A stretch of 64,000 nucleotides of DNA, taken from the NCBI RefSeq assembly GCF_036002945.1, contig NZ_CP108529.1:4893001-4957000 (forward strand), in the 5' to 3' direction. The DNA comes from Streptomyces sp. NBC_01224 (GTDB taxonomy: Bacteria; Actinomycetota; Actinomycetes; Streptomycetales; Streptomycetaceae). The notes beneath the pieces are model-generated. The model had not been told where the DNA came from, did no database searches, and saw only the letters and a program-made list of their open reading frames with translations. A program made the position numbers and the translations under genes. Shown here one piece after another: positions 1 through 47,281 of this stretch (positions are counted from its first letter, which is position 1; each line of letters opens with the position of its first letter).

Positions 1-2015
1 GCCACCGCGAGCGAGGCGACCAGAGTCTGGAGGAGTTCGGACTTGCCGGAGCCGGTGGTGCCGGCGACCAGCCCGTGCGGGCCGTCGCGCCGCAGGTCCA
101 GGTAGAACGGGCCGTCCAGGGAGACGCCGACGGCTGCCCGGGTCGAGCGGCCCCCGGCCGTCCAGCGCGCCCGGATGCCGGCGGCCTGCGGCGGGTCGAG
201 GGCGAGGACGTCGAGCAGCCGCGCGGAGCCGGGAAGCACCGCGGCCTCCTCGTCGGCACCGCCCGGGTCCCGCAGCGGGCCCATCGCGCGGGCCAGCGAA
301 CGGCACCAGTCCAGGGACACCGCGTCGGGCCGGATGCCCCCGACGGTGCCCCTCCCGGAGCGTCCCACCCGTACGGTTCCGCCGGGCTCCTCGGCGACGA
401 CGGCGTGGCACTCCTCGGGCAGCAGCCGCTCCTCGGCGTCCAGGCAGACCGCGCGGACGCCGACGGCCGGTCCGTCGCGCAGGATCTGCGCCACGCCGGG
501 CAGCGAACGCAGCCTGCGGGCTCCGTCGAGGATGACGAGCACGTCGGGCCCGGCGGGCCGGCTCCGCCGGTCCTGCCGTCCGGCGCGCTCGACGATCAGC
601 GCGGTGAGTTCGGCGACCCGCCGGGCGCAGGTCTCCGTGCCGTAGCCGATGCTGGCCGGGGTGTCGCCGGACTTCTTGCGCACATGCGGCAGCCAGCGCA
701 GCCAGGACCAGCCGTCCCGGCCCCGTTCGCCGGTCGTCAGCAGATAGATCTGGAGGTCACGGGGGCTGTGCAGGACAGCGGCCTGGGCGACCGCCCAGCG
801 CGACACGGCGCGCGCGGCCGGGCCCTCGCCGGCGATGCCCAGGACGTCGTGCTCCCGCAGCGGAACGGTCACCGGGACGTCGTACGCGGTCCGCGGGTCC
901 TCGCGGCGGTGTTCGTCCTTCGTCGGGTCCTGGAGCACCACGTCGGAGGCCAGATCGGCGGTTCCGATGCGCAGTTCGAGGAAGTCGGCGTCGGAGGTAC
1001 GGCGTTCCCACAGGCGGCGCCGGGGGCCGACGGCGGTCAGGAGGACCTCGGCCGGGTCCGGGAAACCGCGGCGCCGGGCGGTGCGTTCGGCCGCCAGGGC
1101 CTTCGCCGCGTCGCCCTCGATGCGTGCCTTCTTCTCCTCGTAGGCGGCGACACTGCCGGAGTGGGTCTGGCGCCCGGTACGCCGGCTCATCAGATAGTTG
1201 CCGAGGATCGCGACCGGGGAGAGCAGCCCGAACAGCAGCATCGACATACGGTCGAATATCAGCGCCCCGGCCCCCGCCATCACCAGCGGGGCCGCCGCGG
1301 TGATCCACGGGAGCGGCCGGGCGGCGGGCGGGGCGGGCGGGGAGGGCAGGGTGAAGCGGGTGGCGTTCTCGGCCGGCCGCAGCCGCGGCGGCCGGTTGTA
1401 GTCCCAGCCGGTGCCGTCCTCCGACGGCTGCACGGCCGCGTCCGGCTTCTGCGGGAGGGCGAGTTCGAGCAGGCTGTCTCCGACGAGGAGCTGTGCGCCG
1501 GCCGGCCAGGCGGTCGCCTCGGCGAGGTCCTCGCGGTCCAGTTGCAGGGTGCCGTCGCCCGGCGCGGAGGCGTCGGGCGTGATACGGCAGCGTCCTTGGG
1601 GGCCCACCGCCAGGACGGCGAACGGACGGTCCGGTACGGCGCGCAGCACCTGGGCGGTCCCGTCGTGGGCCAGCCCGATCCGGTACTCCCCCATGTCGAG
1701 CCGGTGTACGGTGCCCGCGCCGGTCCCACCGACCGTACGGACCTCCACCAGCCCGGCCGGTTCGGCCGACACGGTGCCCGCGGGGCGGCCCAGGCCCACG
1801 ATGGCCGCGTGGTGCAGCGGCGCGTCCCGCAGCCGCATATCGGCGGGCAGCAGCCGGTCGCCGGCATACAGGCCGAGGCCCTCCGGGGGCCGGTGGACGC
1901 CTCCTGCCCCGGCCAGCGCCTCCGCGACAGCGCGCACAGGCGTGTCGGGATCGGCGTCGAGGTGGACGTCGAACGCGTCACCGCCCTCCTCGACCACGGT
2001 CAACATCAACGACAC
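1..2015 (-). CDS. FHA/FtsK-SpoIIIE-type ATPase (EccC/EssC-like), C-terminal part outside the window
   Basis: The frame stays open from the left edge to a GTG at 2015, which has GGAGGA seven bases upstream; an in-frame ATG lies three codons in (2006). About 671 residues are visible. Residues ~1-85 look like a small N-terminal fold, ~90-185 resemble an FHA-like domain, and ~236-275 form one or two membrane segments. A Walker A motif, GTTGSGKSE, lies near the window edge at ~652-660. FHA plus membrane segments plus FtsK/SpoIIIE ATPase is the order seen in EssC/EccC-type secretion motors, so a role in protein secretion at the membrane is inferred. I see no WXG100 genes nearby. A decayed EccC gene lies 5 kb to the right. 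The divergent neighbour at 2250 is separated by a strong inverted repeat. Confidence 0.85.
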   Translation of the reverse strand, partial: MSLMLTVVEEGGDAFDVHLDADPDTPVRAVAEALAGAGGVHRPPEGLGLYAGDRLLPADMRLRDAPLHHAAIVGLGRPAGTVSAEPAGLVEVRTVGGTGAGTVHRLDMGEYRIGLAHDGTAQVLRAVPDRPFAVLAVGPQGRCRITPDASAPGDGTLQLDREDLAEATAWPAGAQLLVGDSLLELALPQKPDAAVQPSEDGTGWDYNRPPRLRPAENATRFTLPSPPAPPAARPLPWITAAAPLVMAGAGALIFDRMSMLLFGLLSPVAILGNYLMSRRTGRQTHSGSVAAYEEKKARIEGDAAKALAAERTARRRGFPDPAEVLLTAVGPRRRLWERRTSDADFLELRIGTADLASDVVLQDPTKDEHRREDPRTAYDVPVTVPLREHDVLGIAGEGPAARAVSRWAVAQAAVLHSPRDLQIYLLTTGERGRDGWSWLRWLPHVRKKSGDTPASIGYGTETCARRVAELTALIVERAGRQDRRSRPAGPDVLVILDGARRLRSLPGVAQILRDGPAVGVRAVCLDAEERLLPEECHAVVAEEPGGTVRVGRSGRGTVGGIRPDAVSLDWCRSLARAMGPLRDPGGADEEAAVLPGSARLLDVLALDPPQAAGIRARWTAGGRSTRAAVGVSLDGPFYLDLRRDGPHGLVAGTTGSGKSELLQTLVASLAV

Positions 2016-2050: not shown

Positions 2051-2157
2051 CGGCAGCCGCACTCGGCGGCTGCCGTGCCACTGACGGGACCTACGGCGCC
2101 CGTCGGCGGATGGTTCACCCGGCGCACCGGTGAACCATCCGCCGACGGGCGCCGTAG
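2051..2157. repeat. Two hairpins in the divergent intergenic region, one with 29-bp perfect arms
   Basis: The arms at 2091-2119 and 2129-2157 are perfect reverse complements (29 bp) around a 9-base loop. Just left of them a second inverted repeat has 9-bp arms (2051-2059 and 2067-2075). The structure sits between the divergently read FtsK-like gene (start 2015) and the gene at 2250, so it is not an ordinary 3' terminator for either. Possible roles are a transcription barrier for read-through, a cruciform, or a footprint of a lost mobile element; the sequence alone does not decide. Confidence 0.8.
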
Positions 2158-2249
2158 TGGCCATCGGGGGCACGGCGCAGCGACTGTGCAGCCCCCGTTC
2201 TCGACCGTCCCGGCTCCGCCGCCGGGGCGTCCCGACAAGGAGTCAGAAG

Positions 2250-3200
2250 ATGATCTGGTACGTCCTGGCCGTGGTGCTGGGGCTGGCGCTGATCGGCGCG
2301 GTGGCCGCGCTGATCGTCACCGAGCGACGCCGGCCACCCCGCCCGCCGAAGCCCGTCGCGGCCTCGGCGGCCGTCGTGGGCCGGGAGGCGCTGGACGTGG
2401 TCAACGCGGGCCTGCGCCGGCTGACGGGCGAATGCCTGCGTTCCGGCCGGTCGCTGCCCGACCTGTACGCCGTCGTCTACTCCGAGGAGCGGCTCGCACT
2501 GCTGCTGGCCGGGGCCGAGGAGGCCGCCCCCGCGCCCTGGAGAGTCGAGGCGGACGGCGAGCGCTGGACGATCTCGCCCGACGATCTGCACCGCCCCGGC
2601 CCGGAGGGCGAACCGGCCCTGCCGTACGCGCTGACGGTGACGGTGGGCCTGGACGGACCCGACCGCGTGCTGGTCGACCTCTCCCGGGCGGCGGGGCCCG
2701 TGTCGGTGACGGGGCCGGACAAGGAGGTGCGCAGCCTGGTGCGGGCCGTCGTCACCGAGGCGCTCGCCGGCCCGGTGGGGGCGCTCGCCGAGGTCACCCT
2801 GGTGGGATCCCTGGCCGACGGCGGGCTCCTTTCCGGCGACGAGCCGCGGACCTCGCGTCTGCACAGCGCGGCCAGCCTGGAGGATGCGTTCGCCACGGTG
2901 GCGGCGTCGGCGGGCACGGGAGCGCCGGAGCCCGGCTCGCCCGACGTCACCCAGATCTTCCGGCTGATCGAGGGCAGCAGCCGGATCGCCGTCCAGGGCG
3001 AGGCGCCGCACCTGTTCGTCGTGGACGCCTCGCAGCTCCCGCGACGGGAGGGGGCACTGGCCGGTCTGCGGCGCGGGGACGCGCTGCTGGTGGTCGGCGA
3101 GGCACCCACGGGGTGGCGCTGGCGTGCCGGTGCGGGCGGATCGCTAGACACCGGGCCGCTCGGCCTGGAGATCACCCGGCACGCGGGACGTCTGGCATAA
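2250..3200 (+). CDS. Membrane-anchored hypothetical protein
   Basis: The ATG at 2250 follows AAGGAG with suitable spacing and is preferred to earlier in-frame starts, which would run through the intergenic hairpin. The 316-residue product opens with one hydrophobic segment (about residues 4-24, MIWYVLAVVLGLALIGAV onward) followed by Arg/Pro-rich sequence, so an N-terminal anchor with a cytoplasmic body is likely. The rest is a soluble alpha/beta-looking region without a motif I recognise. It is divergent from the FtsK-like ATPase and could be an accessory protein of it, which is inference from position only. Its stop is three bases from the stop of the convergent sigma gene. Confidence 0.8.
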   Translation: MIWYVLAVVLGLALIGAVAALIVTERRRPPRPPKPVAASAAVVGREALDVVNAGLRRLTGECLRSGRSLPDLYAVVYSEERLALLLAGAEEAAPAPWRVEADGERWTISPDDLHRPGPEGEPALPYALTVTVGLDGPDRVLVDLSRAAGPVSVTGPDKEVRSLVRAVVTEALAGPVGALAEVTLVGSLADGGLLSGDEPRTSRLHSAASLEDAFATVAASAGTGAPEPGSPDVTQIFRLIEGSSRIAVQGEAPHLFVVDASQLPRREGALAGLRRGDALLVVGEAPTGWRWRAGAGGSLDTGPLGLEITRHAGRLA

Positions 3201-3203
3201 GTG

Positions 3204-3788
3204 TCATCCGGCCTCGCGGTACACGTCGCCCGCGTACAGCCCGCGGCTGTGCAGCGCCTCGCGCAGGGCGCGGGCGGCGTAGTACGTCCGCGACTTGACC
3301 GTGCCCGGCGGCACGCCGAGGACCTCGGCCGTCTGGTTGACGCTGCGTCCCAGGTAGTGCACGTGCAGCAGGACCTCGCGCTGTGCCGGCCGCAGGTCCC
3401 GCAAGGCGTCGATGAGCACCTGGGAGGTGAGCATGTGGTCCACGCCGTCGGACACCGGCAGGTGGGCGAGTTCGGGGTCACCGGTCTCCGGTGGTCTGGC
3501 CTGGCGGGCCCGGTGGCCGTCGATGACCAGATTGCGCAGCGCGGTGAACAGCCAGGGCCGTACCGAATCCGTGGTCGGGTCGAGTTCCTCGGCGTGCCGC
3601 CAGGCGCGTATCGCGACTTCCTGGACGACGTCCTCGGCGCGGTGCCAGTCGCCCTCCAGCCGCCGTGCGGCGAACTGCAGCAAGGCGCTGCCGTGGAAGT
3701 GGTAGAGCGCTCTGAGGAACTCGTCGGGGTGGGGTTCCGCGGCGCGGGGGCCAGGTATGAGGCCTTCGGTCGAAGCGCTGGCCGACAA
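3204..3788 (-). CDS. ECF-type RNA polymerase sigma factor
   Basis: The 194-residue product has both ECF core regions. Sigma region 2 runs through GDWHRAEDVVQEVAIRAWRH and region 4 through the VNQTAEVLGVPPGTVKSRTY helix-turn-helix. A TTG at 3788 is chosen because AGGAAGG stands about four bases upstream; a longer form from a TTG at 3845 has no ribosome site. No anti-sigma gene with a zinc-binding HxxxCxxC motif lies next to it. Its partner is therefore unknown; the anchored protein at 2250 is convergent rather than co-transcribed. It is likely to direct a small regulon, perhaps cell-envelope related given the neighbouring surface proteins (inference). Confidence 0.88.
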   Translation of the reverse strand: MSASASTEGLIPGPRAAEPHPDEFLRALYHFHGSALLQFAARRLEGDWHRAEDVVQEVAIRAWRHAEELDPTTDSVRPWLFTALRNLVIDGHRARQARPPETGDPELAHLPVSDGVDHMLTSQVLIDALRDLRPAQREVLLHVHYLGRSVNQTAEVLGVPPGTVKSRTYYAARALREALHSRGLYAGDVYREAG

Positions 3789-3930
3789 GGGCCCTTCCTC
3801 TCCGGTCGTCTGTGGGGAAGGCGGGTTCCGCCGGCTGCGGGACAACCGGCAGGCGCCGCCGCGAGCCGCCGTGCGCCCGTGCGGCGCCCGTCAGCCTGCG
3901 GCGGCGGTGAACTCGCCCCGTCAGCGCCGG

Positions 3931-4701
3931 TCAGCCCGGTTCGCGAGAGGAAAGCGAGCCCACCTCACGGGACGTCAACTCCCGGTTGTAGACATGTATG
4001 TCGGCGATGTCGCCGTTCCAGTAGTCGGCCGCCTTCCCATCGAACTTGCCGCGTCCGATCACCACAGTGCCGGTGGGTTTCACGCTGCTGGAGGCCACCC
4101 TGGTTCCCGCGAGCCGGCCGTCCACGTAGACCTGCATCCGGTGGTCCTTCTGACTGTACGTGCCGGTCAGGTGGTACCAGCGGCCGGGCTGCGGCTTCTC
4201 GGGCGTCTTCGCGACCGTACGGGCACCGCCGAAACTGAAGGCGAAGTTCCCGTCCGGGCCGGAGTACTGGAGGAAGAATGTGCTGATCCGGTCGCCGTCC
4301 TGGGACAGGGCGGTGTGGATGCCGGTCATGCCCTGGGGGGTGAGGCGCACCCGCGCGGCGACCGAGTAGTCCTTGCCCACGGTGTCGAGCCGGGTGTTGG
4401 AGTCCGCGTATCCGCTGGTGCCGTCCAGTTGCACGGCGCCGCCCTCGGGGCCGTCGGTCCACTGCGTGCCGCCCCTGACCACGGCGTCGTGCTCGCCGGC
4501 CTTCGCGGTGCCGGACTGGTGCAGGGGCCACCAGCCGAGGCCCTGCAGCGACTCGGCGTCGTCGGTCGGGCTCGACGCGGCCGGTTTCGCCCCGGCCTGT
4601 TCCTTCCCGGAGTCCTGGCCGCGCACCAGTTGGACGACGACGAAGGCCAGCGCGACGGTCAATACGGTGATCGTGGTGATGAGCGGCCATCTGCGCGTCA
4701 T
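3931..4701 (-). CDS. Membrane-anchored LamG (concanavalin-like) domain protein, surface-anchor paralogue 1
   Basis: The ATG at 4701 is preferred because GAGG stands six bases upstream. The 256-residue product starts MTRRWPLITTITVLTVALAF, a positively charged tip plus one membrane segment (~7-28), then a short Gln/Lys/Ala/Pro linker. From ~50 on it is a LamG/laminin-G-like jelly roll, with the typical features of a variable LHQSG-type start, DYSVAARV, RWYHLTGTY, VYVDGRLAG and a C-terminal NGDIADIHVYNREL strand. Such domains bind glycans or proteins outside the cell. The first ~45 residues and the DNA upstream are nearly identical to those of the genes at 5604 and 7764, whose heads are unrelated. 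It probably sits outside the membrane; its ligand is unknown. Confidence 0.85.
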   Translation of the reverse strand: MTRRWPLITTITVLTVALAFVVVQLVRGQDSGKEQAGAKPAASSPTDDAESLQGLGWWPLHQSGTAKAGEHDAVVRGGTQWTDGPEGGAVQLDGTSGYADSNTRLDTVGKDYSVAARVRLTPQGMTGIHTALSQDGDRISTFFLQYSGPDGNFAFSFGGARTVAKTPEKPQPGRWYHLTGTYSQKDHRMQVYVDGRLAGTRVASSSVKPTGTVVIGRGKFDGKAADYWNGDIADIHVYNRELTSREVGSLSSREPG

Positions 4702-5041
4702 GAATGTCCTCAGGAGGTGCGGCATATATATGTCACTGGTGATCACGCGTCCGATCCGGAAGTGGTTCGGTGTGCCGTTAAGTTGTGACGGGCCTGTGAG
4801 GACGCGGAGCTGTCCGCCCCTGGATGTGCGCCGGTGCGCCGGGAGATGCGGCGATGCCTTGTTCGGGGCAGTGGAACATGGGGAGTTGTGGCGTTCCGGC
4901 GGCGCGGGCGCATCGTCCGTCAACCGTTCCCGAGTGTTCACGACGCGGTCGCCGGGGTCCGCCGGCTTTCCCCGGCCGTTCACCTGTGTGCGGTGGGGTG
5001 CGGGGTGTGTCCCGTGGAATCCGCTCCAACTCCGCTACGGC
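4558..5041 (-). repeat. Anchor cassette copy 1 (shared N-terminus plus upstream DNA)
   Basis: This is one of three near-identical direct copies (others 5985-6531 and 8306-8838). Each carries the linker and membrane-anchor codons of a surface gene plus ~340 bp of upstream DNA holding the ribosome site and presumably the promoter. Copy 1 stops abruptly at 5041, where sequence identical to the region next to the WhiJ-like gene begins. The non-coding part (4702-5195, about 490 bases together with the next segment) has no gene I can support. Confidence 0.85.
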
Positions 5042-5987
5042 TGCGATCCCTTTTCGACTCGACCGGTCTCAACCGGTCACTACCCGGCCCCGCCGGATTC
5101 AACTGAGGTTCAGGGGAGTTCGCGCAGGTCGACGGGTTTGTGACCCCCCTCGTCAGTCAAGGGAGACGCTAGCCAACCGGGGGCGGACTGGTCCCGTGGA
5201 TGCGCCGAGAAGTGAACTGAAACGTGAATGGATTCCGGCTTCCGGATTTCAACTCCGCAAGGCGGGCGCGCAATTCGAAGCCGTGCGCGTGGACGGTGAC
5301 GAAGGGCGGCGGCTCGCCTTCTTGATGGAGGCGATTACGGGCGGCGAGCCGGGGCCCGTCGTCACCGAGGCGAACGGGCGGCGGGCGGTGTACTTCTTCG
5401 TCCCGGCCGGAAGTACCGTACGCAAGTCCTGGCCGGCCGGAGCGATTCCGTTCAACGCGGCGGTGGGCCGGATCAGTTATGTGCCGATCCCCGCCCTGGC
5501 CGGCCGTACATGGCCGTTGGCGTGGTATTTCCCGCCGACCGCGCCGGACCGGTTCGTCCACACGCTGTTGCTGCTGAACGCGGTGTCTGCCCTGCTGCGC
5601 TGATCAGTCGGCCTTGGTGTACGTGAGCTTCTCGCCGGTGTCCGTGTTCTCGCGGCGCAGAGAGCCGTCCGGGAGCAGGGTGAGCGTGGTGGGTTTGCCC
5701 GCGGTGCAGGACGTCATGGGTTCGCCGACGACGACCGTGGAGGGGCCGACCTCCACCGGGCCGGTCGGGGACGGTTCCGCGGTCAGGTCCGCCTGGAAGA
5801 CGCAGTGGTAGGAGCCGCCACCGTCGAGCGGGCCGTCCGCGGTGAGGGTGAGGACCCTCCGGCCGACCGTGCCCTGCTGGATGACGAGTTCCCGGGTGGA
5901 GTGGCCCGCGGCGTTGTCGATGGAGCCCGACCAGGTGCCGAGGTAGCCGGCCGGGATGGGGCCGTCGCTGTTCCTCTTGTCGTCGGT
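5042..5987. repeat. Segmental duplication, copy A (matches 44857-45801)
   Basis: About 946 bases match 44857-45801 in the same orientation with scattered substitutions. The segment contains the promoter region divergent from the WhiJ-like gene (without that gene), the complete 135-residue gene, and the 3' end of the Ser/Thr kinase gene that encodes its sensor domain. The left edge coincides with the base just before the WhiJ-like ATG. The right edge falls in TCGTCGG, which is also present in the anchor cassette and is therefore a likely microhomology junction. Confidence 0.9.
5196..5603 (+). CDS. Small protein resembling primase/polymerase-like partners of WhiJ loci, orphan copy
   Basis: The 135-residue product is read from a GTG at 5196; an in-frame open frame continues upstream, but the paralogue at 45011 has the same GTG context. 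By my count it differs from that paralogue at 15 of 135 positions, so it appears still to be under protein-level constraint. The pattern RKAGAQFEAVRVDGDEG, then GEPGPVVTEANGRRAVYF and VPAGS, resembles short proteins often annotated as bifunctional primase/polymerase-like near WhiJ/DUF397 loci. That match is from memory and is tentative. It has lost the WhiJ-like and DUF397 neighbours that accompany the other copy. It is convergent with the gene ending at 5604. Confidence 0.6.
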   Translation: MDAPRSELKREWIPASGFQLRKAGAQFEAVRVDGDEGRRLAFLMEAITGGEPGPVVTEANGRRAVYFFVPAGSTVRKSWPAGAIPFNAAVGRISYVPIPALAGRTWPLAWYFPPTAPDRFVHTLLLLNAVSALLR

Positions 5988-6137
5988 CGGGCTCGACGCG
6001 GCCGGTTTCGCTCCGGCCGGTTTCGCCCCGGCCTGTTCCTTCCCGGAGTCCTGGCCGCGCACCAGTTGGACGACGACGAAGGCCAGCGCGACGGTCAATA
6101 CGGTGATCGTGGTGATGAGCAGCCATCTGCGCGTCAT
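5604..6137 (-). CDS. Membrane-anchored free copy of the kinase sensor domain, surface-anchor paralogue 2
   Basis: The ATG at 6137 has GAGG six bases upstream, as in paralogue 1. Of 177 residues, the first ~50 are the shared anchor (MTRRWLLITTITVLTVALAF, then a linker with a small internal duplication, AGAKPAGAKPA). The last ~120 residues are almost identical to the extracellular C-terminus of the Ser/Thr kinase at 45419, differing at about 8 positions by my count (start GPIPAGYLGTWSGSID, end GEKLTYTKAD, with two cysteines conserved). The gene is therefore a chimera: cassette anchor plus kinase ectodomain, without the kinase. It may compete for the kinase ligand or bind it for another purpose (inference). 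Confidence 0.82.
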   Translation of the reverse strand: MTRRWLLITTITVLTVALAFVVVQLVRGQDSGKEQAGAKPAGAKPAASSPTDDKRNSDGPIPAGYLGTWSGSIDNAAGHSTRELVIQQGTVGRRVLTLTADGPLDGGGSYHCVFQADLTAEPSPTGPVEVGPSTVVVGEPMTSCTAGKPTTLTLLPDGSLRRENTDTGEKLTYTKAD

Positions 6138-6531
6138 GAATGTCCTCAGGAGGTGCGGCATAAATGTGTCACTGGTGATCACGCGTCCGATCCGGAAGTG
6201 GTTCGGTGTGCCGTTAAGTTGTGACAGGCCTGTGAGGACGCGGAGCTGTCCGCCCCTGGATGTGCGCCGGTGCGCCGGGAGATGCGGCGATGCCTTGTCC
6301 GGGGCAGTGGAACATGGGGAGTTGCGACGTTCCGGCGGCGCGGGCGCATCGTCCGCCAACCGTTCCCGAGTGTTCACGACGCGGTCGCCGGCGTCCGCCG
6401 TCCTTCCCCGGCCGTTCACCTGTGTGCGGTGGGGTGCGGGGTGTGTCCCGTGGAAACCGCTCAAACTCCGTTACGGCTGCCGGTGAACGGTACGGCGGGC
6501 ACGCCGAGGGACTTCTGGACGGGCAGACCGG
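5985..6531 (-). repeat. Anchor cassette copy 2
   Basis: This copy carries anchor codons plus upstream DNA and continues ~50 bases beyond the end of copy 1, up to about 6531, matching copy 3 at 8306-8838. From 6532 to ~6700 the sequence is unrelated to copy 3. It contains two imperfect copies of CCGAGTTCTT (near 6568 and 6638) and no gene I can support. Confidence 0.85.
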
Positions 6532-6701
6532 GGGCTGTTTGTAAGCACTTGTTTTGGGACCAGGGTTCCGAGTTCTTTTGGCCCCGGTCCTGGCAGGTCG
6601 GGGGCGCTCAAGGGGGTGGTTCGCGCCCACATTTCCGAGTTCTTCTGGCTCCACCACGATCGGGTGGTTGTAATGGCCTTTGGCGGGCGGCAGGGCGATA
6701 G

Positions 6702-6869
6702 CGCAGGGGCTCGGGTCCTGCTGAGCGGTGTGCCCCCGACAGGCGCGGCGGCTCTGCGGGCCTCGACCCGTATTCGATCCGGGACCGATGGTTTCTCCGA
6801 GCCTCGGTGGACGACGAGGACGGGCATTGGCTCGACCAGTCGGAGAACGGCCGGGCCCAGCATGGCTGA
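6702..6869 (+). pseudogene. C-terminal tail of a lost plus-strand gene
   Basis: A 55-codon frame with coding-like composition ends in TGA at 6867-6869 directly in front of a strong terminator hairpin. It includes SIRDRWFLRASVDDEDGHWL near its end. No start codon with ribosome site precedes it; an in-frame TAG stands at 6699. I do not recognise the family. The gene-tail-plus-terminator arrangement suggests a gene whose front was removed when the surrounding DNA was rearranged. Confidence 0.4.
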
Positions 6870-6899
6870 GGCCGGCGCCGCCCTCGGGGCGCCGGCCTC
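6868..6899 (+). terminator. Strong hairpin terminator
   Basis: Twelve-base perfect arms (6868-6879 and 6888-6899) flank an 8-base loop. It overlaps the stop codon of the plus-strand gene tail and marks about where EccC-like sequence ends on the other strand. Confidence 0.7.
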
Positions 6900-7685
6900 G
6901 GTATGCCTGACGTCCGGCCGTTCCGCGGCCTGCTCCAGTCGCGTCCGCAGGTAGCCGGCGATGCCTTCGAAGTCCTCCGCGGCCAGCGGCACCACTTTGG
7001 CCTCACCGGTGGCATCCGGCTCGTGGGTGTGCGGCAGCCACTTGGCCCACTCCCAGTCCTCGCCGCCGGTGACGATGGCCATGCCCACGTCGTCGGGCGC
7101 GTGCCGCACCGCCGGCTGGCACAGAAGGGCTCTTACCACCCCGCGGGCCGCATCCGACGACCCCAGCACGCTGACGACACCGGCGCGCCCCGGATCAACC
7201 ACCGCCGGCTGGCTGCTGACCGTGGACATCGACTCGATCAGCCGGTCGGCGGCGGCCTTGGCCCGGGTGTCGTACTCCACCGTCGGATCGTTCCGGGTGG
7301 CCGGCCGGATGGGCGTCGACAGCGGCGCCGTCCCGACGCCGACACATATCCGCAGGAAGTCGGGGTCGGTGGCGCGGCGCTCCCACACCCGTCGGCGCGC
7401 GGCGGCGATCGCTCACAGCCGGTAGGGGGACGGGAAGGACCACGCCGCGACCAGCCGCTGGTTCTCGGCGACCTGCCGGGCGACGCCCCGCACCTCGACC
7501 AGATGCTCCAGGTAGAGGTCCGGGGCTCGCATCTTCTTCTTGCGTGCCTGGCCACGCATCTGCATCCGGACGGCAACGGTGACGCCGATCGACAGCACCA
7601 CGAAGGCGATGCCCAGCAGAATCAGCAGCCTTCTGCCGCCGGACATCAGATACGCGGCCATGCTGATGCTGGACAGCAGGGGCAT
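6900..7685 (-). pseudogene. Decayed EccC (type VII secretion ATPase) gene
   Basis: From an ATG at 7685 the frame encodes two membrane segments and the EccC-like stretch YLEHLVEVRGVARQVAENQR. It then hits TGA at 7413-7415. Immediately after, in the same frame, the match continues with RRRVWERRATDPDFLRICVG, the hallmark of EccC proteins, up to about residue 255. A Trp codon (TGG to TGA) is the simplest origin of the stop. The normal N-terminal extension is missing, and the sequence ends before the first FtsK ATPase domain, near the 6868-6899 hairpin. No nucleotide-binding motif remains, so it cannot act as a motor. It lies downstream of and in frame with the lectin gene, so read-through fusion is possible but unlikely to matter. 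Confidence 0.75.
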
Positions 7686-7763
7686 GGCGTCACGTTCCTC
7701 GCGTTGGGGAAGAAGAGGCGTGGTGGCGGCTGTGGGGCGCCCGGGACGGGCCTGCTGTCGGCG

Positions 7764-8441
7764 TCAGATGTGCGTGTTCGTGGCCCACACCTGCTTCCCA
7801 CCGGCCATGATGACGACGTTGCCGTCGGGCTGGATGACCAGGGTGGCGTTGGTGAAGCCGGCGGGGTTCGAGGCCCATATCGCTCGACCGGCTGCGGTGT
7901 AGATGACGAGATTGCCGTCATCCTGGAAGGCCGCCATGTTGTCCTTGCCGGAGGTGCCGGCAGCCCAGAGCACCCGCTTTTCCTGCCGGTCGTAGAGCAC
8001 GAGGTTGCCGTCGGCCTGCATGCCCAGCTGCAGCCGGTCGGACTTCCAGGACGTGGCGGCGTGCAGCTTCGCGACCGGCTTGATGACGACGGGCGCCGGG
8101 GTCGTCGTACGGGCCTTGTCCGCGGCGTGTTCCGGGATCTTGGCCTGGGCTGTCGTCTGCCCCGTCGGTGAGGTGTGCCTCGTGGTCCCCGTGTCGGGGA
8201 AAGTGGTCCCCGTGCTGGGGTGAACCCCGGAGGGCGCCGGGCTCTTGCCCTTGCCGGCGTGCTTCTTGGGCGTCGACGACGCGGATTCCAGCCCTCCCGG
8301 CACGCCGGGGCTCGACGCGGCCGGTTTCGCCCCGGCCTGTTCCTTCCCGGAGTCCTGGCCGCGCACCAGTTGGACGACGACGAAGGCCAGCGCGACGGTC
8401 AATACGGTGATCGTGGTGATGAGCGGCCATCTGCGCGTCAT
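7764..8441 (-). CDS. Membrane-anchored bulb-type (B-) lectin protein, surface-anchor paralogue 3
   Basis: The start is the ATG at 8441. The bases just upstream differ from the other two paralogues (CTACAGG instead of CTCAGG), and the ribosome site is weaker (AGGGA). Of 225 residues, ~1-42 are the shared anchor, ~43-120 a Ser/Thr/Pro-rich stalk, and the rest a B-lectin domain with repeated mannose-binding-type motifs, QADGNLVLYD, QDDGNLVIYT and QPDGNVVIM. These match the QxDxNxVxY consensus; the third is slightly degenerate. It should face outward and bind mannose-like sugars or act as a bacteriocin-type lectin. The decayed EccC gene follows in the same frame after its stop. Confidence 0.87.
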   Translation of the reverse strand: MTRRWPLITTITVLTVALAFVVVQLVRGQDSGKEQAGAKPAASSPGVPGGLESASSTPKKHAGKGKSPAPSGVHPSTGTTFPDTGTTRHTSPTGQTTAQAKIPEHAADKARTTTPAPVVIKPVAKLHAATSWKSDRLQLGMQADGNLVLYDRQEKRVLWAAGTSGKDNMAAFQDDGNLVIYTAAGRAIWASNPAGFTNATLVIQPDGNVVIMAGGKQVWATNTHI

Positions 8442-8838
8442 GAATTCCCTACAGGAGGTGCGGCATAAATGTGTCACTGGTGACTACGCGTCCGATCCGG
8501 AAGTGGTTCGGTGTGCCGTTAAGTTGTGACGGGCCTGTGAGGACGCGGAGCTGTCCGCCCCTGGATGTGCGCCGGTGCGCCGGGAGATGCGGCGATGCCT
8601 TGTCCGGGGCAGTGGAACATGGGGAGTTGTGGCGTTCCGGCGGCGCGGGCGCATCGTCCGTCAACCGTTCCCGAGTGTTCACGACGCGGTCGCCGGCGTC
8701 CGCCGTCCTTCCCCGGCCGTTCACCTGTGTGCGGTGGGGTGCGGGGTGTGTCCCGTGGAAACCGCTCAAACTCCGTTACGGCTGCCGGTGAACGGTACGG
8801 CGGGCACGCCGAGGGACTTCGGGACGGGCAGACCGGGC
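8306..8838 (-). repeat. Anchor cassette copy 3
   Basis: This third direct copy of anchor codons plus upstream DNA matches copy 2 out to about 8838. The gap 8442-8993 (over 500 bases) consists of this repeat and then ~155 bases of unassigned sequence. It may contain the native promoter of the family, since the longest copies (2 and 3) share the same right end. Confidence 0.85.
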
Positions 8839-10457: not shown

Positions 10458-10856
10458 GTCTCCACCGTTCTTGCTCGGCTACCCGTCGATGCTCCGGGGC
10501 CATCCTGACGCATAGCCGGTCGCGGCCTCGCGCGGCGTGGGGATCGCGGAGAGGGAAACTCGCACTTCTCGTCGGGCTCCGCCTCCTGCTCCAGGAGAAC
10601 GCCGGCCTTCGCCGAGATGTCGCGTACAAGCGCGTCCTTCAGGTCGTGCAGTGTCGCGACCTCGGAGACCAGTTGCCGTGCCCGGCGCGCAGTGCCCGGA
10701 CCGCGGCCTCTCTGATCTCTTCGGGCCGTCGGTGTCGGGGAAGCCCTGGGCAAGGTTGATGGAGCCGGTCCGTACGGCAAGCGCCGACATCTCCGCGGAG
10801 ATCGTTGTGCCGAACTCGGTGAGGCGGCGGTTGAGCAGCGGTCGTCCCCGTGTCAT
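10458..10856 (-). pseudogene. Truncated, frameshifted second copy of the aminotransferase N-terminus
   Basis: An ATG at 10856 opens MTRGRPLLNRRLTEFGTTIS, clearly the same beginning as the intact gene. After the codons for FPDTDGP a single base is missing; the match then resumes in another frame as EEIREAAVRAL and stops near 10675. The remaining ~215 bases up to the intact gene encode, in that second frame, a stretch beginning VSEVATLHDLKDALVRDISA that looks like protein but not like an aminotransferase. This is probably a remnant of tandem duplication followed by deletion. Confidence 0.75.
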
Positions 10857-44856: not shown

Positions 44857-45010
44857 TGCGATCCCTTTTCGACTCAACCGGTCTCAACCGGTCACTACCC
44901 GGCCCCGCTGAACTCAACTGAGGTTCAGGGGAGTTCGCGCAGGTCAACGGGTGTGCGACGCCCCTCGTCAGTCAAGGGAAACGCTAGCCGTCCGGGGACA
45001 GACTGGTCCC

Positions 45011-45418
45011 GTGAATGCGCCGAAAAGTGAACTGAAACTTGAATGGATTCCGGCTTCCGGATTTCAACTCCGCAAGGCGGGCGTGCAATTCGACGCCGTG
45101 CGCGTGGACGGCGACGAAGGGAGGCGGATCGCCTTCTTGATGGAGGCGATCACCGGCGGCGAGCCGGGGCCCGTCGTCACCGAGGCGAACGGGCGGCGGG
45201 CGGTTTACTTCCTGGTTCCGGCCGGAAGCACCTTGAGCAAGTCCTGGCCGGCCGGGGCGACTCCGTTGAACGCGGCGGTGGGCCGGATCAGTTACGTACC
45301 GATCCCCGCCCTGACCGGCCGCACATGGCCGCTGACGTGGTACTTCCCGCCGACCGCGCCGGACCGGTTCGTCCACACCCTGCTGCTGCTGAACGCGGCG
45401 TCCGCCCTGCTGGGCTGA
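45011..45418 (+). CDS. Small primase/polymerase-like protein divergent from the WhiJ-like gene
   Basis: The 135-residue product (GTG 45011) is paralogous to the gene at 5196. It contains VRVDGDEGRRIAFLMEA, GEPGPVVTEANGRRAVYF, VPAGS and ISYVPIP. Small proteins with this pattern commonly stand beside WhiJ/DUF397 loci and are sometimes labelled bifunctional primase/polymerase because of a distant match; no catalytic acidic triad is evident here. It abuts the kinase stop with no spacer (45418/45419). Confidence 0.65.
   Translation: MNAPKSELKLEWIPASGFQLRKAGVQFDAVRVDGDEGRRIAFLMEAITGGEPGPVVTEANGRRAVYFLVPAGSTLSKSWPAGATPLNAAVGRISYVPIPALTGRTWPLTWYFPPTAPDRFVHTLLLLNAASALLG

Positions 45419-47281
<1,863 letters not shown>

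Follow-up and report, generated by a model that had tools for sequence, protein, structure and literature searches.

Two probable captures of unrelated outer domains under one repeated promoter and anchor module in a Streptomyces genome

How did three neighbouring genes of Streptomyces sp. NBC_01224 come to begin almost identically and to end in unrelated domains? The window analyzed here is a stretch of 64,000 nucleotides (contig NZ_CP108529.1, positions 4,893,001 to 4,957,000, forward strand), and three of its minus-strand genes, named here after their LamG, kinase-type and lectin heads, share a module of 343–395 bp of upstream DNA and 45–48 codons with 94–98% DNA identity. The upstream part common to all three copies (M1 in the LamG gene, M2 in the kinase-head gene, M3 in the lectin gene) is 343 bp long, extends to ~395 bp between M2 and M3, and the copies display 97–98% identity across 300 bp. 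A preliminary description, made from the sequence alone, had reported ~45 N-terminal residues and ~340 bp of upstream DNA as nearly identical, and blastn bears this out (94.2–97.9%). The three ends that it named are likewise found: Pfam recognizes a LamG domain and a B-lectin domain in the outer genes (Table 1), while the middle head has no Pfam family match but is 92% identical to the C-terminus of a kinase from the same genome. At the protein level the 45 anchor residues are identical between the LamG and lectin genes, and the kinase-head anchor differs from them by one substitution (P6L) and a 5-residue insertion. Judged by its sequence, this anchor part (MTRRWPLITTITVLTVALAFVVVQLVRGQDSGKEQ...) resembles a signal anchor that stays uncleaved and has a proline/alanine linker. 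The order along the locus is module-lectin/eccC-module-kinase tail-module-LamG, and a search of the genome returned these three module copies and no more. The dN/dS values of the heads (0.35–0.88) indicate that they are not freely decaying.

Table 1. Features of the locus and of the kinase donor segment, in window coordinates
Feature	Position	Strand	Basis or remark
eccC-like T7SS ATPase gene, runs past the left end of the window	1–941	-	EccCa/EccCb and EssC models, E down to 9e-158
Inverted repeat with two divergent GAACC-N16-CGT promoters (2132 +, 2116 -)	2072–2176		pair in 16/16 loci
orf2130, conserved gene, convergent to the sigma gene, under one divergent promoter	2130–3200	+	neighbour in all LamG loci
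ECF sigma factor gene, SigL-like, directly 3' of LamG	3204–3845	-	Sigma70_r2/r4
LamG gene, 256 aa, anchor + LamG head	3931–4701	-	Laminin_G_3 E=1.7e-25
Module M1, upstream DNA + anchor codons	4558–5044	-	blastn 94–97% to M2, M3
M1 ECF-type promoter GAACC-N16-CGT (predicted)	4745–4768	-	motif conserved in 21/21 anchor genes
Insert copied from kinase locus	5042–5986	-	93.0%, ungapped, to 44857–45801
Hitchhiking 155-aa gene copy	5136–5603	+	138/156 positions (stop included) identical to 44951–45418
Kinase-head gene, 177 aa, anchor + kinase ectodomain	5604–6137	-	head 92% to C-terminus of kinase 45419–47281
Module M2	5979–6532	-	97.9% to M3, 94.2% to M1
M2 ECF-type promoter GAACC-N16-CGT (predicted)	6181–6204	-	conserved motif
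Decayed 5' fragment of plasmid-type T7SS eccCa, in-frame TGA at 7413–7415	6533–7685	-	TIGR03924 E=1e-32
Lectin gene, 225 aa, anchor + B-lectin head	7764–8441	-	B_lectin E=2.5e-8
Module M3	8308–8837	-	97.9% to M2, 97.1% to M1
M3 ECF-type promoter GAACC-N16-CGT (predicted)	8486–8509	-	after CGT: AGT, not GAT
Donor segment, kinase gene 3' end + downstream region	44857–45801	-	945-bp match; kinase domain E=8e-35 for 45419–47281

The likeness of the modules within this genome is far beyond chance, since M1 shares only ~50–81% identity with the orthologous LamG modules from other species. Simple tandem duplication of one gene, with the heads diverging afterwards, would account for the tandem order, the same strand and the common 5' halves, but it is hardly credible for heads that are unrelated domains, one of which has a 93% identical donor elsewhere, and for an identity among the three genes that stops abruptly at codon 45–48. 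The preliminary description had named upstream similarity that scales with coding similarity as the mark of such a duplication, and the upstream identity does not follow head similarity. Functional constraint on a long leader, in place of recombination, is just as improbable an explanation of the upstream identity. Diverged species do share the promoter motif and the initial anchor codons, but the rest of the leader differs by at least 19% between orthologues against 2–6% among the copies of this genome, and changes specific to the window or to a plasmid described below are common to all copies within a genome.

The donor of the middle head lies in the same window, ~40 kb from the three genes. 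The DNA between M2 and M1 matches the donor segment without a gap over 945 bp (blastn): the insert starts where M2 ends, and M1 starts where the insert ends. The insert contains the kinase ectodomain, a small convergent gene and intergenic DNA. Its counterpart in the donor takes in the 3'-terminal part of a Ser/Thr kinase gene with a Pkinase domain, the region downstream of this gene, the convergent gene itself, and the opening bases of an XRE-type regulator gene. The same kinase-small gene-XRE order is kept in Streptomyces sp. Ncost-T10-10d and, at the DNA level, in another genome (G075), which argues that it is native to the donor locus. An identical anchor-ectodomain junction is present in three genomes—this one, Ncost-T10-10d, where it stands beside LamG, and G019—suggesting that the fusion most likely arose once. 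The kinase ectodomain family is common in Streptomyces, and the kinase-head protein finds matches in 259 of the 394 genomes surveyed, a few of them via the anchor alone. The identity between heads and kinases is uneven: the window head is 93% identical to its kinase, the Ncost head 81% to its own. This requires extra conversion or a second capture and counts against the explanation that we prefer below. That the kinase and its copied head have exchanged sequence by conversion is faintly hinted at by a run test (p=0.013, uncorrected for three comparisons). We also considered a CCGACGA identity at the kinase junction as the trace of a template switch and dropped it: orthologous modules do not contain CCGACGA, which may be kinase-derived.

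The lectin head points to a plasmid. Between M3 and M2 it is accompanied by the decayed eccCa fragment, which displays 76% DNA identity to plasmid eccCa genes of S. coelicoflavus and S. anthocyanicus. The same lectin fusion, 93.5% identical over 225 aa, is carried by a 270-kb linear plasmid of Streptomyces sp. NBC_00057 (NZ_CP108257.1), and the anchor-lectin junction is the same in the two genomes. On that plasmid the lectin gene is followed by an extra small gene, YbaB, a shorter eccCa piece and a second module, after which come a frameshifted LamG gene, a sigma gene and orf2130. Since YbaB lies directly 5' of eccCa on the S. coelicoflavus plasmid, the original insert was probably the lectin together with a YbaB-eccCa piece, of which the window genome appears to have since lost YbaB, and NBC_00057 more of eccCa. 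A search for an unfused lectin donor found none; other Streptomyces lectins are at most 51% identical, and at the loci read these homologues do not stand beside YbaB and eccC, with the exception of one in G014 that has an eccC ~6 kb off.

We observe concerted evolution of the modules: copies from the same genome are more alike than orthologous copies between genomes. Identity within the genome reaches 94–98% in the window and 97.7% on the NBC_00057 plasmid. Certain changes are common to all three window modules and absent from other genomes, and the two plasmid modules share others. In a tree built on 165 bp of upstream DNA the window three group together with support of 92/97 and the plasmid two with 91/89. 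The AU test rejects a clade of the window and plasmid modules that belong to the LamG orthologues (p=9e-5), and is borderline for the lectin-module and kinase-module groupings (p=0.058 and 0.061). The modules thus cluster by genome and not by gene, though the LamG and lectin genes of window and plasmid are clearly orthologous (~95% identical), which argues that they were homogenized after head capture. An earlier tree on 420 bp of upstream DNA placed the Ncost kinase-head module with the LamG module of G019; this was an artefact of a shared aminotransferase flank, and the tree was redone with 165 bp.

To determine how far the module has spread, we surveyed 394 Streptomyces genomes and supplemented them by a contig search and one plasmid, sampling one genome per species. 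The anchor was found in 11 of the 394 genomes (~3%), in four more species and on the plasmid, giving 16 loci. This count excludes G074, where the anchor match is weak (41–43%) and the locus, once read, proved unrelated; the match in G550 is likewise weak (41–43%). The LamG gene is present in all 16 module genomes, although frameshifted in NBC_00057, which points to it as the ancestral member. It is the only head in 12 of them, whereas the kinase-head fusion occurs in three and the lectin fusion in two, this genome having both, and no fourth head type was found among all genomes searched. Such a distribution suggests occasional capture and not a shuffling system. The preliminary description had read the locus as repeated recombination, and possibly as a general way to diversify surface receptors, expecting many different C-terminal domains behind the module in other genomes. 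The first part stands in that heads were swapped in twice under one promoter and anchor; the second does not, only two head types besides LamG having turned up. A dedicated domain-shuffling system, in which heads are swapped routinely at the module, used as a landing site, in the manner of phase or antigenic variation, would explain two independent captures that both joined in frame at almost the same codon, the position of the G019 kinase-head unit, which lies with its promoter 2.2 Mb from LamG, and the deletions around modules by which the plasmid and chromosome versions differ. We nevertheless hold it to be highly unlikely: no integrase, transposase or recombinase is present in the 10 neighbouring ORFs checked (12.2–28.2 kb), the genome has no silent head cassettes, only its three module copies, the kinase insert includes a whole unrelated gene, and both fusion junctions are fixed between species.

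What a captured head gains may be read from the promoter motif. All 21 anchor genes carry GAACC-N16-CGT 63–73 bp before the start codon, even those copies whose leader is otherwise only ~50% identical, and the motif takes the longer form TGAACC-N16-CGT in the module. The base after CGT is G in M1 and M2 and A in M3 and the plasmid copies, whose predicted promoters may be weaker. The sigma factor encoded next to the LamG gene finds its best match among solved structures in M. tuberculosis SigL (E=1.5e-28; next best 2e-10). The -10 region of SigL prefers CG followed by TG (PMC6372665), and the CGTG of M1 and M2 fits this preference. A divergent pair of the same motif occurs in all 16 loci, ~2.5–2.95 kb downstream of the LamG start and between orf2130 and the eccC side, and likely drives both. 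Seven motif matches were found in 83 kb against ~2.9 expected from composition, five of them at module or divergent-pair sites. The true start of orf2130 is probably near 2250, downstream of its promoter. Its product has no Pfam or NCBIfam match, and no RslA-like anti-sigma gene was recognized at the locus. The EccC-type ATPase models score below the NCBIfam curated cut-offs, and the other large ORFs near eccC show no match to WXG100 or EccB/D/E. We infer the pairing of sigma factor and promoters from conservation and adjacency; the simplest reading is one predicted ECF regulon that comprises the anchored LamG protein, orf2130 and a T7SS-type locus. Since the motif of the module also occurs beside the eccC locus next to the SigL-like sigma gene, captured heads are predicted to enter this T7SS-linked regulon. 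Our literature search returned no paper on LamG proteins with type VII secretion in Streptomyces, and none on the predicted regulon of LamG, SigL-like sigma factor and EccC.

We consider it probable that the locus as a whole reflects domain capture by duplicative rearrangement, homogenization of the module and a SigL-like regulon. At its root would stand an old gene for a LamG surface protein, part of a SigL-like ECF sigma regulon at a T7SS-type locus with eccC; the module would be the portion of this gene that holds promoter and signal anchor. The kinase ectodomain and its downstream DNA would have been copied from 40 kb away by duplicative rearrangement, and the B-lectin would have arrived on DNA that included part of a plasmid-type T7SS locus. 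Every capture would leave the pattern module-insert-module, and ordinary gene conversion between the repeated modules would keep promoter and anchor alike while the heads stay different. With the adjacent sigma factor active, the heads would most likely be displayed on the outer side of the membrane, and may there serve in extracellular binding. Of these points, the sequence itself shows the kinase donor, the layout, the common junctions, the homogenization and the conservation of the promoter motifs. The exact rearrangement is less certain: single-crossover integration of plasmid-borne or circular module-head DNA, instead of replication template switching, has a substantial chance, if somewhat short of even, of having produced the module-insert-module pattern. 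The aminotransferase-lectin-LamG-sigma stretch on the linear plasmid of NBC_00057 and the arrival of the lectin with plasmid-type eccCa favour this route, but for the kinase head, whose source lies in the same chromosome region 40 kb away, no plasmid is required. The variant bears on the route alone and is compatible with the capture account. A bolder proposal, and in our judgement an unlikely one, is that the modules form a permanent platform for capture. As direct repeats within a T7SS-linked ECF regulon, they would time and again take up extracellular domains, foreign or local, put them under sigma control and lose them by module-module recombination. Head content would then turn over between close strains.

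Capture under one promoter and anchor resembles several known systems. As when segmental duplication creates chimeric genes, the copy includes adjacent non-coding DNA and is joined in frame to the promoter and start of another gene; here the case is bacterial, and the recipient part is duplicated around each insert and later homogenized. In the bab/sab outer-membrane adhesins of Helicobacter pylori, too, gene conversion maintains the shared ends of paralogues that differ in their binding part. The variable parts of these adhesins, however, are homologous to one another and change places frequently within strains; the heads of the present locus are mutually unrelated, and we see two captures only. 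The middle head matches an ectodomain of the Streptomyces Ser/Thr kinase family at 92% identity, with the difference that a short anchor replaces the kinase domain and transmembrane segment, leaving no signalling domain. The predicted regulon shares with that of M. tuberculosis SigL, for which the -35 consensus is TGAACC, an ECF factor of SigL type and a promoter of GAACC/CGTG type; it differs in having no recognized RslA-like anti-sigma gene and in its predicted targets, which are the LamG anchor protein, orf2130 and the eccC locus. The locus is an unusually readable record of bacterial surface proteins gaining unrelated outer domains, in which donor, recipient, junctions, hitchhiking gene and later homogenization can all still be made out. 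A further outcome is a predicted, conserved regulon of LamG anchor protein, SigL-like sigma factor and EccC-type locus in ~3% of the sampled Streptomyces.

Several further observations concern the surroundings of the modules. The stretch of aminotransferase, lectin, LamG, sigma and orf2130 genes lies mid-chromosome in the window genome and on the linear plasmid in NBC_00057, ~92–95% identical. A resident second aminotransferase gene is found in pieces, at 10716–10847 and ~5.3–5.6 kb left of the window start (residues 3–46 and 282–382). Between the pieces lies a ~16-kb stretch that holds the three genes, sigma, eccC and a complete aminotransferase gene of its own, an arrangement that looks like an insertion of this stretch into the resident gene. 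At the T7SS locus of the S. coelicoflavus plasmid, YbaB, eccCa, two WXG100 genes and a LamG-fold protein stand in a row; LamG proteins may accompany T7SS regularly. Across species the initial 30 nt of coding sequence in the anchor (4672–4701 and orthologues) are near-invariant even at synonymous sites, which may reflect a constraint on initiation or on the leader.

The kinase ectodomain (e.g. 45419–45801) is widespread in Streptomyces, has no Pfam model and yields a confident beta-barrel-like model. For the kinase head, AlphaFold2 predicts an eight-stranded beta structure (pLDDT 92.6). A fold search against the PDB returned weak matches (best E=0.008), several lipocalin-like barrels among them, and offers only a hint of a small-ligand barrel. 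The ectodomain profile also matches a tail-protein chain (9c2d_S, E=7.5e-5). Compared with the window kinase 45419–47281, the G019 kinase displays 81% DNA identity in the kinase domain and only ~66–71% in the ectodomain; judging by this case, ectodomains may be exchanged between kinases too.
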